Both the position numbers and the translations under genes were made by a program. The notes beneath the pieces are model-generated. The model saw nothing but the letters and a program-made list of their open reading frames with translations, did no database searches and was not told the origin of the DNA. Positions 3,879 through 32,949 of a stretch of DNA of 53,275 nt are shown piece after piece; the first letter of the stretch is position 1, and every line of letters starts with the position of its first letter. This stretch comes from Cochliopodium minus (lineage: Eukaryota > Discosea > Himatismenida > Cochliopodiidae): the NCBI GenBank assembly GCA_024220525.1, contig JAMYWO010000066.1:1-53275 (forward strand). Reading direction: 5' to 3'.

Positions 3879-6122
3879 ATGGCAAACACCAATCAAGATC
3901 ATGATCTTTTGATTGGAGAAGAGGATAACTGGAAGATTTATGAGACCAAGACTTTGCAGGGATTCGATTGGAAATCTCCTGTATTCACTTTCTTAAATGT
4001 TATTGGGGGATCCCTTCAAGCAATTGTATTGACATTATGGTAAGTTATCAATCAAATAAAAACACCAATGATTATTTAAATAAAATCATCAAAACAAAAC
4101 ACAGGATATCGACATTCATAGGTAAAATATAAAAAAGAAAAAGAATTTTCACATGTGAGATAAAAAATTCCAAAGAAAATTAAAATCAAAAAAATTGAGA
4201 AAAAGAAAAGATTAATTTCAAAAAAAATTAATTAAATAATAAATTAAATCACAAATATTTTACTTTTTTTTCCTTGAAACTTTACTAACTGCTTTTCTTA
4301 CCTTCATTATAGTTGGAGGAGGGCCTTATTTCATCTTATTATTCAGCTCATTAGTATTCTTTGTGGGGTTTTTAATCTTGGCGATAGCATGGAAGGTAAT
4401 GTACAGAGATGTTTTGGTACCTTCTTTGAAACAGTACTTCTTACAGTTTTTTTTGATTGGATTTTTTGATGCTTTGAACGGTGTTTTGATTGTTTATGCT
4501 AGTGATCCTACCAGGACTCCTCCCGTTCTCCAAGCCATCTTGCCCAACACTTCTATCTTATGTAATAAAAAAATTTTTTTAAAAGATAAATTAAAAAATG
4601 ACATAATAATCAATAAAAATAAGTAACAATAAACAAAGAAATAAATAAATAAAAAAACTTTTATTTTTAGGAAAAAATTAATAAATTTTTTTTTGAATTA
4701 TTAGTTTTAAAAATATTTTAAAAAAATTCAAAAAAAAAATTCAAAAAAAAAAATACAAAAAAAATAAAAATTGTAATCGAATTTCGAAATTTTTTGTTAA
4801 AATAGGGGGAATTCTTACGACAAAGTTGATTGTTGGAAAGAAAAACAATCCGTTACAGTTTTGCCAAGCATGGCCTATGATTTCTTTGTTTGTTGTCTTG
4901 GCAGGTATTTTTCTCAGCTTGTTGCCCACCATCATCGGTACCATCAAGGGTACCATCCCTTTTTTCCATGGAGAAGGTGGTTTGGTTTGGAGTTTCATGT
5001 TCGCATTGGGTGTTGTTCCTGGTGCTTTGTGTAAAAAAAAAATATTTTTTTTCAAAATTTTTTATTTATCAAACATTTTTTAAATTTTTTTTTTTATTTT
5101 GTTCCATTTGTTTTTTTTTTTTTAAATTAATTTTCTTTTTTAATAGTAAATGTGATCCAAGAAAAATTTTTGAAGATGAGAAAAAGAGAATTTGCAAAAG
5201 AAGAACAGAGATCAAGATGTAAAAAAAAAAAAAAAATTTTAAAATTTAATAATAAATTATTTTAATTATTTAATAAAATTAATTTAATATAAAAACAAAT
5301 TGATTTTTAATTTTTTTTGAAAAATGATAATATGTGTAGCTTTTGACATGATAATGTTGTTGATGTACAGCTGTTTGTTCCAATTTTTGACTCTTATTTT
5401 GTTCTTTTGGGTGGATGTAAGAAAATAAAAGATTTAAAAAAAATTGTTTTAACCATCATTTAAAAAAAATTAAATTTCAAAAAAAAACGTCATAAAAATA
5501 AAAATAAAATATATTAAAATAAAAATAGTTCAATAAAATTGTTAATATAAAAAAAACTGTGATTTATTATAATTATTATATAAGATTATTCCGGGGTATG
5601 GATATTCGAAGAACATCGACCAGTTTTTTGAGAATCAATTACTCTCAATAAAATGTTTTTTCAACGTGTACAATGGGTGTTCACAATGTGGATGGCATGG
5701 ATTTTTGTTCATTTTCGGTTATTTCATTTCTTATTTCAGTGGTGCTGCTCTTAACGAGACTTCTGCCAATTATGGTAATTTTTTAATAAAATTATTTTAA
5801 AAAAAAAAAAAATTTTTAAATGAATAAATTTTTCAAAAAAAATTAGGTTTGATTGCTGGTGTAAAAAAAATAAAAAATATTTTATCATTTTTTAATTTTT
5901 AATATATTTTTATTAAATTTAAATTTGTAGGTAATCACAACACCTTTTTGTGCGTTCTTTTGGGTGATCTTCAAAAACCTCAATCCCCAATCTTCTAAGA
6001 CTCCTTTGTGGAGTGTTTTACCTTCTTTGGTTTTGTTGGTAGTGGGAAGCGTGTTTTGGAGATTATGGGAAAATCACGAAAAAAGAAAAAACTTGAATAA
6101 AAAGACAAACAATGTCAATTAA
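3879..6122 (+). CDS. CRT-family (chloroquine-resistance-transporter-like) membrane carrier
   Basis: Nine exons close in phase: 3879-4039, 4105-4121, 4313-4561, 4806-5030, 5147-5218, 5340-5416, 5585-5774, 5847-5860, 5931-6122; 398 residues. Around ten hydrophobic helices are seen, with family landmarks: the repeat-end segment LQAILPNTSILWGILTTKL, the loop NVIQEKF after the fifth helix, and IPGYGYSKNIDQFFEN followed by a Cys-rich loop (CSQCGW). CRT proteins belong to the drug/metabolite transporter superfamily and move amino acids, peptides or drugs across vacuolar or digestive membranes. The N-terminus has an acidic dileucine-like segment (DLLIGEED) suited to endolysosomal sorting. Two exons are only 17 and 14 nt long. 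Assignment to the family is strong; the substrate is unknown. Confidence 0.85.
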
Positions 6123-11795: not shown

Positions 11796-12017
11796 TATAT
11801 TTATCTATTTTGGAAGATAAAAAGTATTAAACAAAATATTTAAACAAAGCCCAATTAAATTATTTTTTTCTCATCTTATAAATCTATTGTATACTTTACA
11901 AGTTTTTTGATCCCAAATTTTATAATACTAAAGTATTGAAGCAATAACTAACAAATAATATTTTAATTGTTTAATAAATTTGAAATCTTTTTTTTTTTGT
12001 GATAAAAATGAAACATT

Positions 12018-13141
12018 TTATTTTGGAAATTCATCGATTTTAACAATCATTTCTCTTCCTCCAAAATCTTCTCCATCAAGTTTGAGAGCTTTCTTTGCAG
12101 ATTCTTCAGAGAAAAACAAAACTACACCTTGTCCTTTTGATCTTCCATCACGATTCTCCAAGATATCGGCTCTTTCAACCTCCCCAAAATCAATAAACTT
12201 ATCTTTCAGATCTTGCCATGAAGTATTGTAAGTCAACTTTTTGATGAATTGTTTTGTGTTTGATTAGTTTTAAAGATTTTCAAGCAATTTTCTATTCGAA
12301 ACTTACATTCCCAACAAATATTTGTCTCCCTTTTTTATCTCCACCAGAAGATCTGAATGAAGAACCAGATCTAGGTCTATCAAGGGGATCTCTTTTAGAT
12401 CTTCCTTTGTTTTCTCTATTATTATTTCTTCTTCTGCTATCAAACCTATCCTCTCTTCTCTCATCTCTTCTATCGTCCCTTCTACTATCTCTTCTTCTAT
12501 CATCTCTATTTTTATCCTCTCTATCCTCTCTCACAAAGATTTCAAAGTCAGAATCTCCAATTTTTGTTCCATTCAATGTTTCTATTGCTTTCAATGCTTG
12601 ATCTCTAGAAGAAAATTCCACTATTCTGGAAAAGTAAAGAATAATTCACATAAATAATAATTATTATTTTTAACGATATTTTTTATAATTTGATTCTAAA
12701 ATTATTGAAATGCAAAATAGTATTATCAAACCAAATCTTTTGTGTACAAAAAATTGTAAATTTTATAAATATATAAGAATAAAAATTTTAATTATATTTT
12801 TTTCATTTCTTACCCACACCCCTTTAATTTTAAATAATATGTTATCCCTTTACTTTATACCACCCTTATTATCATTGTTTTACTTTTGATCTGTTCTTAT
12901 CATCTTGAAAGATGCTGGTATAAACTACATCACCAGCAGATCTGAAATGATCTTTCATATCTTGCCAAGATGTTTTATAGTCAAGATGTGTAACGTAGAG
13001 TCTGTTTGTATAATTTTCACTAATTTTTGGCATGTGTGTTTTTGAACCATTATTATTGTGGCCACCATCTTTTCCACTTCCTCTTCTTCTATTAGTTTTA
13101 TGGCTTTCAATCAATTCATCTAATCCTTTATCTAAATCCAT
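12018..13141 (-). CDS. RNA-binding protein with two RRMs and an RD/RS-rich linker (Gbp2/hnRNP M-like)
   Basis: Exons 13141-12884, 12821-12814, 12625-12307 and 12236-12018; 267 residues. RRM1 begins RLYVTHLDYKTSWQDMKDHF and RRM2 begins IFVGNLTYNTSWQDLKDKF. Both carry RNP1 blocks (KGCGIVEF, KGQGVVLF). Between them lies an Arg/Asp/Ser-rich linker (about residues 115-165) of the kind that mediates SR-type protein contacts. The pairing with the TSWQDLKD helix is typical of yeast Gbp2/Hrb1 and hnRNP M, nuclear mRNP packaging and export factors. The RNP1 block of RRM1 is encoded in part by an exon of only 8 nt: without it the flanking exons do not join in frame, and with it GCG is supplied exactly where expected. 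Confidence 0.85.
12814..12821 (-). other. 8-nt micro-exon in the RNA-binding protein gene
   Basis: On the antisense strand the octamer GGGTGTGG is preceded by a TTAAAG acceptor and followed by a GTAAGA donor. It joins Lys-AAA of exon 1 to A-ATA of exon 3 to read GGG-TGT-GGA-ATA (Gly-Cys-Gly-Ile). This completes the RNP1 octapeptide of RRM1. Confidence 0.8.
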
Positions 13142-13360
13142 TTTCTGGAAAGAACAATTTTTTTTATATTTTTTTATTAATATTTTTGATTAACAATCAA
13201 TAAAAAATGATTTTTTAATTTGAGGTTTTTGAGAAGAATAAAGACAAAGAAAAGAATTTTGAAATAAATTGAACTAAGAAACAAAAAAATTTTCAAAAAG
13301 GTTTCAAAACAAGAATAATGAGAAAAAAGGTTTCAAAATCCAAAATAGGAAAATGTAATT

Positions 13361-16300
13361 TTAATTTAAAAAATAATTCAACATTAAAGATAAATAAACA
13401 AAGATATTTTGGGAAGAATCAATAGATAAATGAACCCCTTTACTTTTCAAAACAAGCAAAAAAGTAAAAACAGTTTGTCTAAATGAAAGGGGAAAGTAAA
13501 TGTGCAAGTTTTTGTCCCACTTTCCCATGAGCTCCTTTTCAACTTCTTTCATTTTTCTAAAGTTGTCTATTCTTTCAAAATACATTCTTTGTTGATTATC
13601 TTCAAAGGGGTTGAAAGATAAAAGGATCAAATCAGACAATGATTTCAAATGATTTTTTGATATCTAAAGAAAGTAAGTATTGAGTAAGTAAGAATGAAAA
13701 ATTAAGGATTATAATTAAAATGTAAAAAATAAAAGGATTTGATTAAAAAAAAAAAAGAGTTTGTTTAAAAATAAATTATAAGAAAAATGTGAAATTTTAA
13801 AAGAAGTAAAAAATAAATAAAAAAATATTTTTAAAAAAGAAATAAAAAAAAGAACCTTGGAAGAGGGATAAAGGTAAAGAAAGGAGTAAACAGAAAAAAC
13901 ATCAATAAAACTTTCAATACGGAGGTCTTGATTCTCCATCAAATCACAAATGGTCAAAGACTTTTGAAGGGAGTTCAAAATAAAAGAAGAAAACTTTTCG
14001 GAGAATTTGGACTTGGTGATCATAATTGAAAAGTTGTAGAGGCAGTCGATTTGGTGCTTTTTTGTGACGATTTGGAGGATGTACTTGGCAATTTTTTTGA
14101 TGAGCTCTTCAAAGTCGTTTTCTGAGATTTTTTCAAGTTTGTTCACCACATTCAATATTTCCTGCACCTTCCACTTTTCTGCTCTTAGTGATAAACTCTT
14201 TTATTTTTTGGGAAAAGATGTAATGAAAAATTAATTTTAAAATTAAATTAAAAAAAAATTTGGGTTTATAAAATTTTGATTTATGAAATTAACTGTTGTT
14301 TAAAAAAACAAACTTTAAAATAATGGGTTTAAATTTATATTTGATTGAAATATATGAAAAATTGCAGAATACCAAAATTTAAATCTTTAAAGAATGAGGT
14401 GGAACAATAAAAAAAAAAAAAAAGAAATTTTCAAAGAAAAAAAAATTAAAATTAAAAAATAAAATTTTACCAAATTGAGGAAATGAAGAGATTGTTTGGA
14501 GAAATTATAAGAATCAGAAATGAGAGCAGTATGCAACAAAAGTTGAAAATGAAAGGCGGATTTGTTGGAGGCGACAGAAACAGAGTTGAGGAGAGAATTG
14601 TGATTTAAGAGGAGAATTTTCTCCAACTTTTCCAACATCTGCAAAAAAAAAGACATGTTCCCCAACTCCCCCATTATTTGCATTGCTTCTAACAGTTTGA
14701 AGCACACGCTGTTAAACACTGAATCGTCCATTCCAGAGTAGTTTCCTTTCCAAAAAAAAAAAATTTATTGGAATTAATTTATTTTTTATAAATTTTTATT
14801 AAATTAATTTATTTTATTGATCATTTTTGATTATTTTCATTTTTCAATATTTTTTTTTATTTTCTTTATATTTTTATTTTTTTTTATCATTTTTTTTATT
14901 TTTTTAATTAATTTTTTTTTAAAATTTAATTTCATTTGTTGATTTATTTGATATTTTTTAATGGGGTTTTTATCAATATTTTTTTTGATGGGTTTTTTAT
15001 TTAATATTTATTTTAAATTTAATATATTTTTTTGATTATATTTTTAATTTTATTACCTAGGGACATACAACGATCGAAATAATCTTTTTCTTCACGTTGA
15101 GAATCTTCCGAAGAAGAAAGGGAGGAGGGAGAGGAGAGATTGGGGTTGGAAGTAGAATGCACCAACAAGGGGTCCAACGATGCGGAGGAATCGAGAGACA
15201 TCAAGGGATCTTGAGTGGTGTCCATCAAATCGTTTTGGCTGCTGCTTTTGATAATATTGAAATCGATATTTTTCACTGAAATCTTTTTTTTATCATTAAA
15301 ATCGATTAAATTGTTATTATTATCATTTTCATTATCATTATATTTGTTATTATCATTATTTTTATTTTCATTATCTTTGTTATTATCATTAATATAATTT
15401 TTAAGAAGATTATTATTATTATTATTAAAAGAATTATTATTTTTATTATTTTTGTGAGTTAAATCGGATTTGGAGGAGTTTTTATTTTTCTGCTTTTGTT
15501 GGAAGGGAGGCTTCTTGCCAAAGATTTGGATGAGGGAGGAGGTGTTGTAATAAACTTTGGAATATCTTTCTTGTTGAAAGTTGTTCAATGACCTAAATGA
15601 TGTGTTTTGTATTGGCTGTTCAAAAAATAATGTTTAAAATTTCAAAAATAATTAAAATTAAAATTTATGTAAATCTGAAAATAAATTAAATTAAAAAAAT
15701 TCATCAAAATTTAATATTTAAAATTTAAAATCAAAAAAAATATTTAAAATTAAAAATTGAAATTAATTCAATTGAGATTTAAGATTTAATTTAAAATTTT
15801 AAAAATAATGAAATGAATTTGAAAAAAAAAAATAAAAAAATAAAACCTTGGATTGGATGAAATGACTGATGAAATGATCGGGTAAAATTCGGAGGAGTTT
15901 TTGAAAGAAATGTTCGCTGAAATGAACAGAAAAAGTTTTTGGAGGAGAAGAAGGGGAGAGGACATCGTCTTTAAACAAAGAAGGGGTGGAGGAAATGGGA
16001 GAGGAAGAATAAATGGAGAGAGGATTGATTAGAGGGGAATTATTTAAAAGAGAATTGTTATTTAACGGAGAGTTATTTTTCTTAGCGGAGATTAATTCTC
16101 TTTCATGATTCACTAATAAAATTTCTACAAAGTGGTTGAACAGACTTATTCTTTGTGCTTCTAACAGTATCGACACTTTGCTATAGAATCCCTCCAAGTC
16201 CAACAATATCAAGATGTTTTCTATTCAAATTAAAAATAAAATTAATAAAAATGACACTAATAAAAATAACAATGATAATAATAAAAGTAACAATAATAAA

Positions 16301-28114: not shown

Positions 28115-32949
<4,835 letters not shown>

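Follow-up and report, generated by a model that had tools for sequence, protein, structure and literature searches.

The window, the whole 53,275-base stretch of DNA that was analysed, has a G+C content of 24.6% and carries on its minus strand a gene with a predicted spliced product of 267 amino acids and two RRMs. It is adjoined by a gene for the ribosomal protein uL23, which is plainly eukaryotic. In coding order, the parts of the predicted gene are as follows.

12884-13141, minus strand: coding part of exon 1, with the ATG at 13141, the N-terminus and the first half of RRM1 to ...NRSK, ending in phase 0 (Pfam RRM_1)
12822-12883, minus strand: intron 1, 62 nt, GTAAAA...TTAAAG, its first base at 12883 after ...AAA
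12814-12821, minus strand: predicted microexon GGGTGTGG, 8 nt, encoding, jointly with base 1 of exon 3, the G-C-G of RNP1 and leaving phase 2
12626-12813, minus strand: intron 2, 188 nt, GTAAGA...TTCCAG
12307-12625, minus strand: exon 3, with the remainder of RNP1 and RRM1, an R/D/E-rich linker and the start of RRM2 (Pfam RRM_1)
12237-12306, minus strand: intron 3, 70 nt, GTAAGT...AAAAAG, at a position shared with a paralogue (see below)
12018-12236, minus strand: exon 4, with RRM2 and the stop codon (Pfam RRM_1)

On the minus strand the octamer is bordered as TTAAAG-GGGTGTGG-GTAAGA, and exon 3 opens with AATAGTGG at 12625, directly 3′ of the acceptor TTCCAG. The original prediction had placed the octamer here between a good acceptor and a good donor. 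Both sites held up when those between 12600 and 12900 were listed, the acceptor ranking first among 12 AG and the donor second among 12 GT. As an 8-nt internal exon with GT-AG flanks, the predicted exon falls within the size range given for microexons (up to 27-51 nt, depending on the author). The translation joined through the octamer reads ...DDKNRSKGCGIVEFSS... and its frame stays open through both RRMs. The octamer and the single base that opens exon 3 encode Gly-Cys-Gly, completing K-G-C-G-I-V-E-F. That it completes RNP1 had been predicted, and the Pfam scores and the paralogue bear this out as well as the joined translation: against RRM_1 (PF00076; cut-off 20.7 bits) the product with the octamer scored 134.9 bits over two stretches, compared with 29.2 bits for the octamer-skipped form.

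The match might nevertheless be due to chance, with the octamer intronic and exon 1 reaching exon 3 by another route. Exons 1 and 3 had been described as impossible to join in frame. This is correct for the direct join, which runs into a stop, but too strong as a general statement: of the in-frame GT-AG routes tried (139 single-intron and 1851 double-intron routes in the window gene, 48 and 370 in the paralogue), 48 of the 139 single-intron routes in the window gene were open. However, the octamer route had the top score among the in-frame routes tried in both genes. The best single-intron route in the window gene deletes part of RRM1 and scored 49.5 compared with 54.2 for the octamer route, and the best in the paralogue adds ∼37 intron codons and scored 59.6 compared with 65.0. 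The runner-up in the window gene has an in-frame 2-nt exon (GG, using the donor GTGTGG inside the octamer) and scored 50.8 against the same 54.2. Its inner donor scores 1.85 versus 4.96, and the variant would drop two RNP1 residues; the octamer of the paralogue has no inner GT.

Dinucleotide-shuffled intron pairs gave a measure of what chance can yield. At least one open in-frame exon no longer than 29 nt was present in 3371 of 5000 shuffles for the window gene and 1581 of 5000 for the paralogue, and an open in-frame octamer in 663 and 242, respectively. Since shuffles often yield a small in-frame exon, an open small exon alone means little. An octamer giving G-x-[G/A] arose in 17 of the 5000 shuffles for the window gene and in none of the 5000 for the paralogue. 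The string AG-GGNNNNGG-GT has one occurrence on both strands of the window, at the octamer. The open single-intron routes, the 2-nt-exon route and the ready supply of small exons in shuffles all speak for a chance match, whereas the lower scores and damaged or padded products of the best single-intron routes, and the recurrence of an 8-nt exon in the paralogue, speak against it. We regard this explanation as very improbable.

The paralogue was found by a DNA search of the organism's own genome, which returned a second locus on another contig (G000:C15, here L002) with the following exons.

L002:1380-1607: exon 1 of the paralogue
L002:1660-1667: 8-nt exon GGATCAGG, with flanking introns of 52 and 167 nt
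L002:1835-2240: exon 3 of the paralogue
L002:2408-2635: exon 4 of the paralogue

Both copies of the gene have an equal exon count, three shared intron positions and an 8-nt exon at the identical codon position and phase. In the paralogue the octamer gives T-G-S-G-I-V-E-F. Three of the eight bases differ between GGGTGTGG and GGATCAGG, one change being synonymous (Gly) and two converting Cys to Ser. The proteins share 44% identity overall, and across 81 RRM1 columns the figure is 58%. Exons 1, 3 and 4 aligned between the paralogues with z = 9.8, 3.9 and 10.9 against simple letter shuffles, whereas introns 1, 2 and 3 gave no clear alignment by the same measure (z = 0.2, 1.4 and 1.1). Therefore, the exon has kept its size and place for longer than the introns have kept their sequence. 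The ancestor of both genes probably had the microexon arrangement already. Conserved coding microexons are defined by agreement between related genes in size, phase and place, and the two octamers agree in all three, one related gene having been compared. We conclude, above all from the paralogue, that GGGTGTGG (12821 to 12814, minus strand) is very probably a genuine 8-nt coding exon.

An error of assembly or sequencing that splits one continuous exon or intron would be a further explanation, and the window does contain three single N and one 100-base run of N. However, positions 12001-14400 are free of N, and the matching architecture at the second locus lies on another contig, so that a local error is no explanation. 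Such an error is exceedingly improbable.

Gene prediction was carried out with a finder that uses codon usage and splice-site weights, without protein knowledge, and was trained on the window. For held-out training the genes overlapping 11900-13300 were removed, leaving 74 introns; this model took its remaining gene models from a run in which the octamer gene had been included, and no training set contained the paralogue. The held-out finder placed both octamers exactly at all three penalty settings. In another run, the exact octamer was obtained at two of three settings (penalty -13) but with neighbouring genes fused, and -15 gave the octamer gene alone. On shuffled intron pairs, an 8-nt exon was called in 0 of 200 cases for the window gene and 1 of 200 for the paralogue, and any internal exon of up to 20 nt in 27 and 18 of 200, respectively. 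The finder works strand by strand, and on the plus strand it produced a further model, ending in an exon (12375-12657) that overlaps exon 3; in all likelihood this model only shadows the coding sequence.

The classical RNP1 consensus is [RK]-G-[FY]-[GA]-[FY]-[ILV]-x-[FY], which Pfam does not require. KGCGIVEF departs from this consensus at positions 3 and 5 (C and I, where aromatics are usual), and TGSGIVEF departs at position 1 also. The RNP1 of hnRNP M likewise departs at positions 3 and 5: it reads SKGCGVVKF (PDB 2dgv, 2dh9), compared with SKGCGIVEF in RRM1 here. When PDB sequences were compared, the relatives with solved structures were hnRNP M, SRSF1, yeast Hrb1 and other RRM proteins, and the best matches were mixed. 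A stretch SWQDLKDH is common to SRSF1 and the predicted product, which, set beside hnRNP M, Hrb1 and the RRMs of SR proteins, has two RRMs around an R/D/E-rich linker. These comparisons show a resemblance of the predicted protein to hnRNP M and to RRMs of the SR type. Another region of the genome, G000:C1:491691-498870, has clustered long reading frames with many tandem RRM matches and was among the better matches to the protein.

RRM genes elsewhere in the genome were surveyed from 131 RRM profile matches, from which 20 loci were taken, mostly for partial matches, and 17 (all except L066, L071 and L072) were read by eye. No tiny exon at RNP1 was seen in these 17 RRM regions, several of which have no clear RNP1. 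By eye, a single intron in a glycine codon at or beside RNP1, in phase 1 or 2, was present at L053, L054, L055, L058 and L068, and less clearly at L065. Among the 17 of 131 RRM matches read by eye, the two-intron arrangement is special to the octamer gene pair.

The octamer is one of several small exons in the window. Three more lie in a plus-strand gene at 28115-32949, and two of these (29534-29569 and 31763-31782) bear motifs that we take to be Walker A.

29534-29569, plus strand: NVL-type exon, 36 nt, first Walker A
30567-30602, plus strand: NVL-type exon, 36 nt, FVGADL stretch
31763-31782, plus strand: NVL-type exon, 20 nt, second Walker A

The gene encodes an NVL-type AAA ATPase, scoring 650.6 bits against PDB 9bji ('nuclear valosin-containing protein-like'), and the alignment crosses all three small exons and is gap-free at those places. 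Both 36-nt exons were found by the gene finder at penalties -9 and -11 and missed at -13, which means that strict settings lead the finder to call too few small exons. An intron of this gene holds the 100-N run (31358-31457), in an AT-rich repeat stretch.

One of the three internal exons of up to 20 nt called in the window looks wrong. This is the 11-nt exon at 5585-5595, which seems to extend to about 5774. It belongs to a membrane-protein gene (3879-6122, plus strand), the first part of which matches Pfam CRT-like with 27.5 bits (cut-off 26.9), and a candidate 14-nt exon was seen by eye in the same gene near 5847-5860.

We consider it highly likely that the octamer, lying between two short GT-AG introns, is constitutively included as an 8-nt coding exon and spliced by intron definition. 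On this reading, the RNP1 codons of RRM1 are interrupted by two ordinary short introns with a spacing of 8 nt, the octamer being what is left between them. As its two splice sites would be too near each other to be bound at once, the introns would be defined and removed in turn. Constitutive inclusion would also be expected because other small exons of the window encode indispensable motifs.

A regulated microexon, which the original prediction had raised as a possible autoregulatory switch, has to be set against constitutive inclusion. In this view the RNA-binding protein, or the paralogous one, would reduce its own expression by a poison-type switch in which the octamer is skipped or intron 1 retained. 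SR proteins are known to regulate themselves in this way, through poison exons, and the predicted protein has the resemblance to hnRNP M and SR-type RRMs described above. Both alternative forms end prematurely: read on the DNA, skipping in the window gene gives ...RSKNSGIFF-stop and retention of intron 1 gives ...RSKVKQ-stop, and in the paralogue, read by eye, the corresponding forms likewise stop early, with skipping giving T-Y-C-stop. In addition, a microexon switch has been published for a fungal transcription-factor gene, Trichoderma Xlr2, in which the microexon is regulated by glucose (PMC11121469). That gene and the octamer gene both carry a microexon in a microbial gene for a nucleic-acid-binding regulator, with glucose regulation shown for Xlr2 alone. 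However, leaving out any exon of 3n+1 or 3n+2 nt shifts the frame anyway, and therefore the premature stops are no evidence of regulation. Furthermore, the introns of the paralogue do not align with those of the window gene, so no shared regulatory element is seen; the splice sites are ordinary, as within the predicted introns used for training the two donors rank at the 39th and 55th percentile and the two acceptors at the 46th and 28th; and other tiny exons of the window bear Walker A motifs. A regulated switch at the octamer is thus unlikely. In an extended form of this idea, inefficient inclusion of the octamer would be a brake shared by the two genes, each protein sensing its own level at the tiny-exon sites, and the arrangement would have been kept through duplication as a cross-regulatory switch, which we think distinctly improbable.

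Very short exons are known from other organisms. The original prediction placed 8 nt near the lower limit of spliceosomal recognition, which was overstated, as 1-nt exons have been published: a constitutive one in Arabidopsis APC11, for which intron definition with stepwise removal was proposed (PMC4674806), and one in Fusarium CYP621A (PMC12940212). The APC11 and CYP621A exons share with the octamer a size far below that of ordinary exons, but they measure 1 nt and are backed by experiments or reads, whereas the octamer measures 8 nt and was deduced from sequence. Plants have conserved coding microexons, including 9-nt exons in AP2 and invertase genes and an 8-nt exon (cluster 18) in RECQ3 (PMC8831610). 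Like these, the octamer is tiny, lies in the core of a conserved motif and has a size and phase common to related genes. Unlike them, it lies in a gene for an RRM protein of an AT-rich eukaryote, in two copies within one genome, and was read from DNA alone. Neural-type cassette microexons usually have a length that is a multiple of three, with both forms in frame (PMC8831610). The octamer is of a different kind, as it has 8 nt and its skipping shifts the frame.

Among the matches listed in our literature searches there was no paper on a microexon within RNP1, from which we do not claim absence from print. For microexons in amoebae, the word 'microexon' did not appear among the matches listed. 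The excerpt available of a paper on Creolimax (PMC4739763) gives the method and no microexon result. What is new here is the host gene and the evidence from its paralogue; tiny exons themselves were already known.

The general view of splicing is unchanged by the octamer. If transcripts confirm it, an 8-nt exon has persisted through gene duplication in an AT-rich eukaryote, probably a protist. In annotation, pipelines that bar such exons would break the NVL-type gene as well as the two octamer genes. For studying how the spliceosome handles exons of 8-36 nt in essential motifs without animal neural factors, a genome that contains them would be useful.
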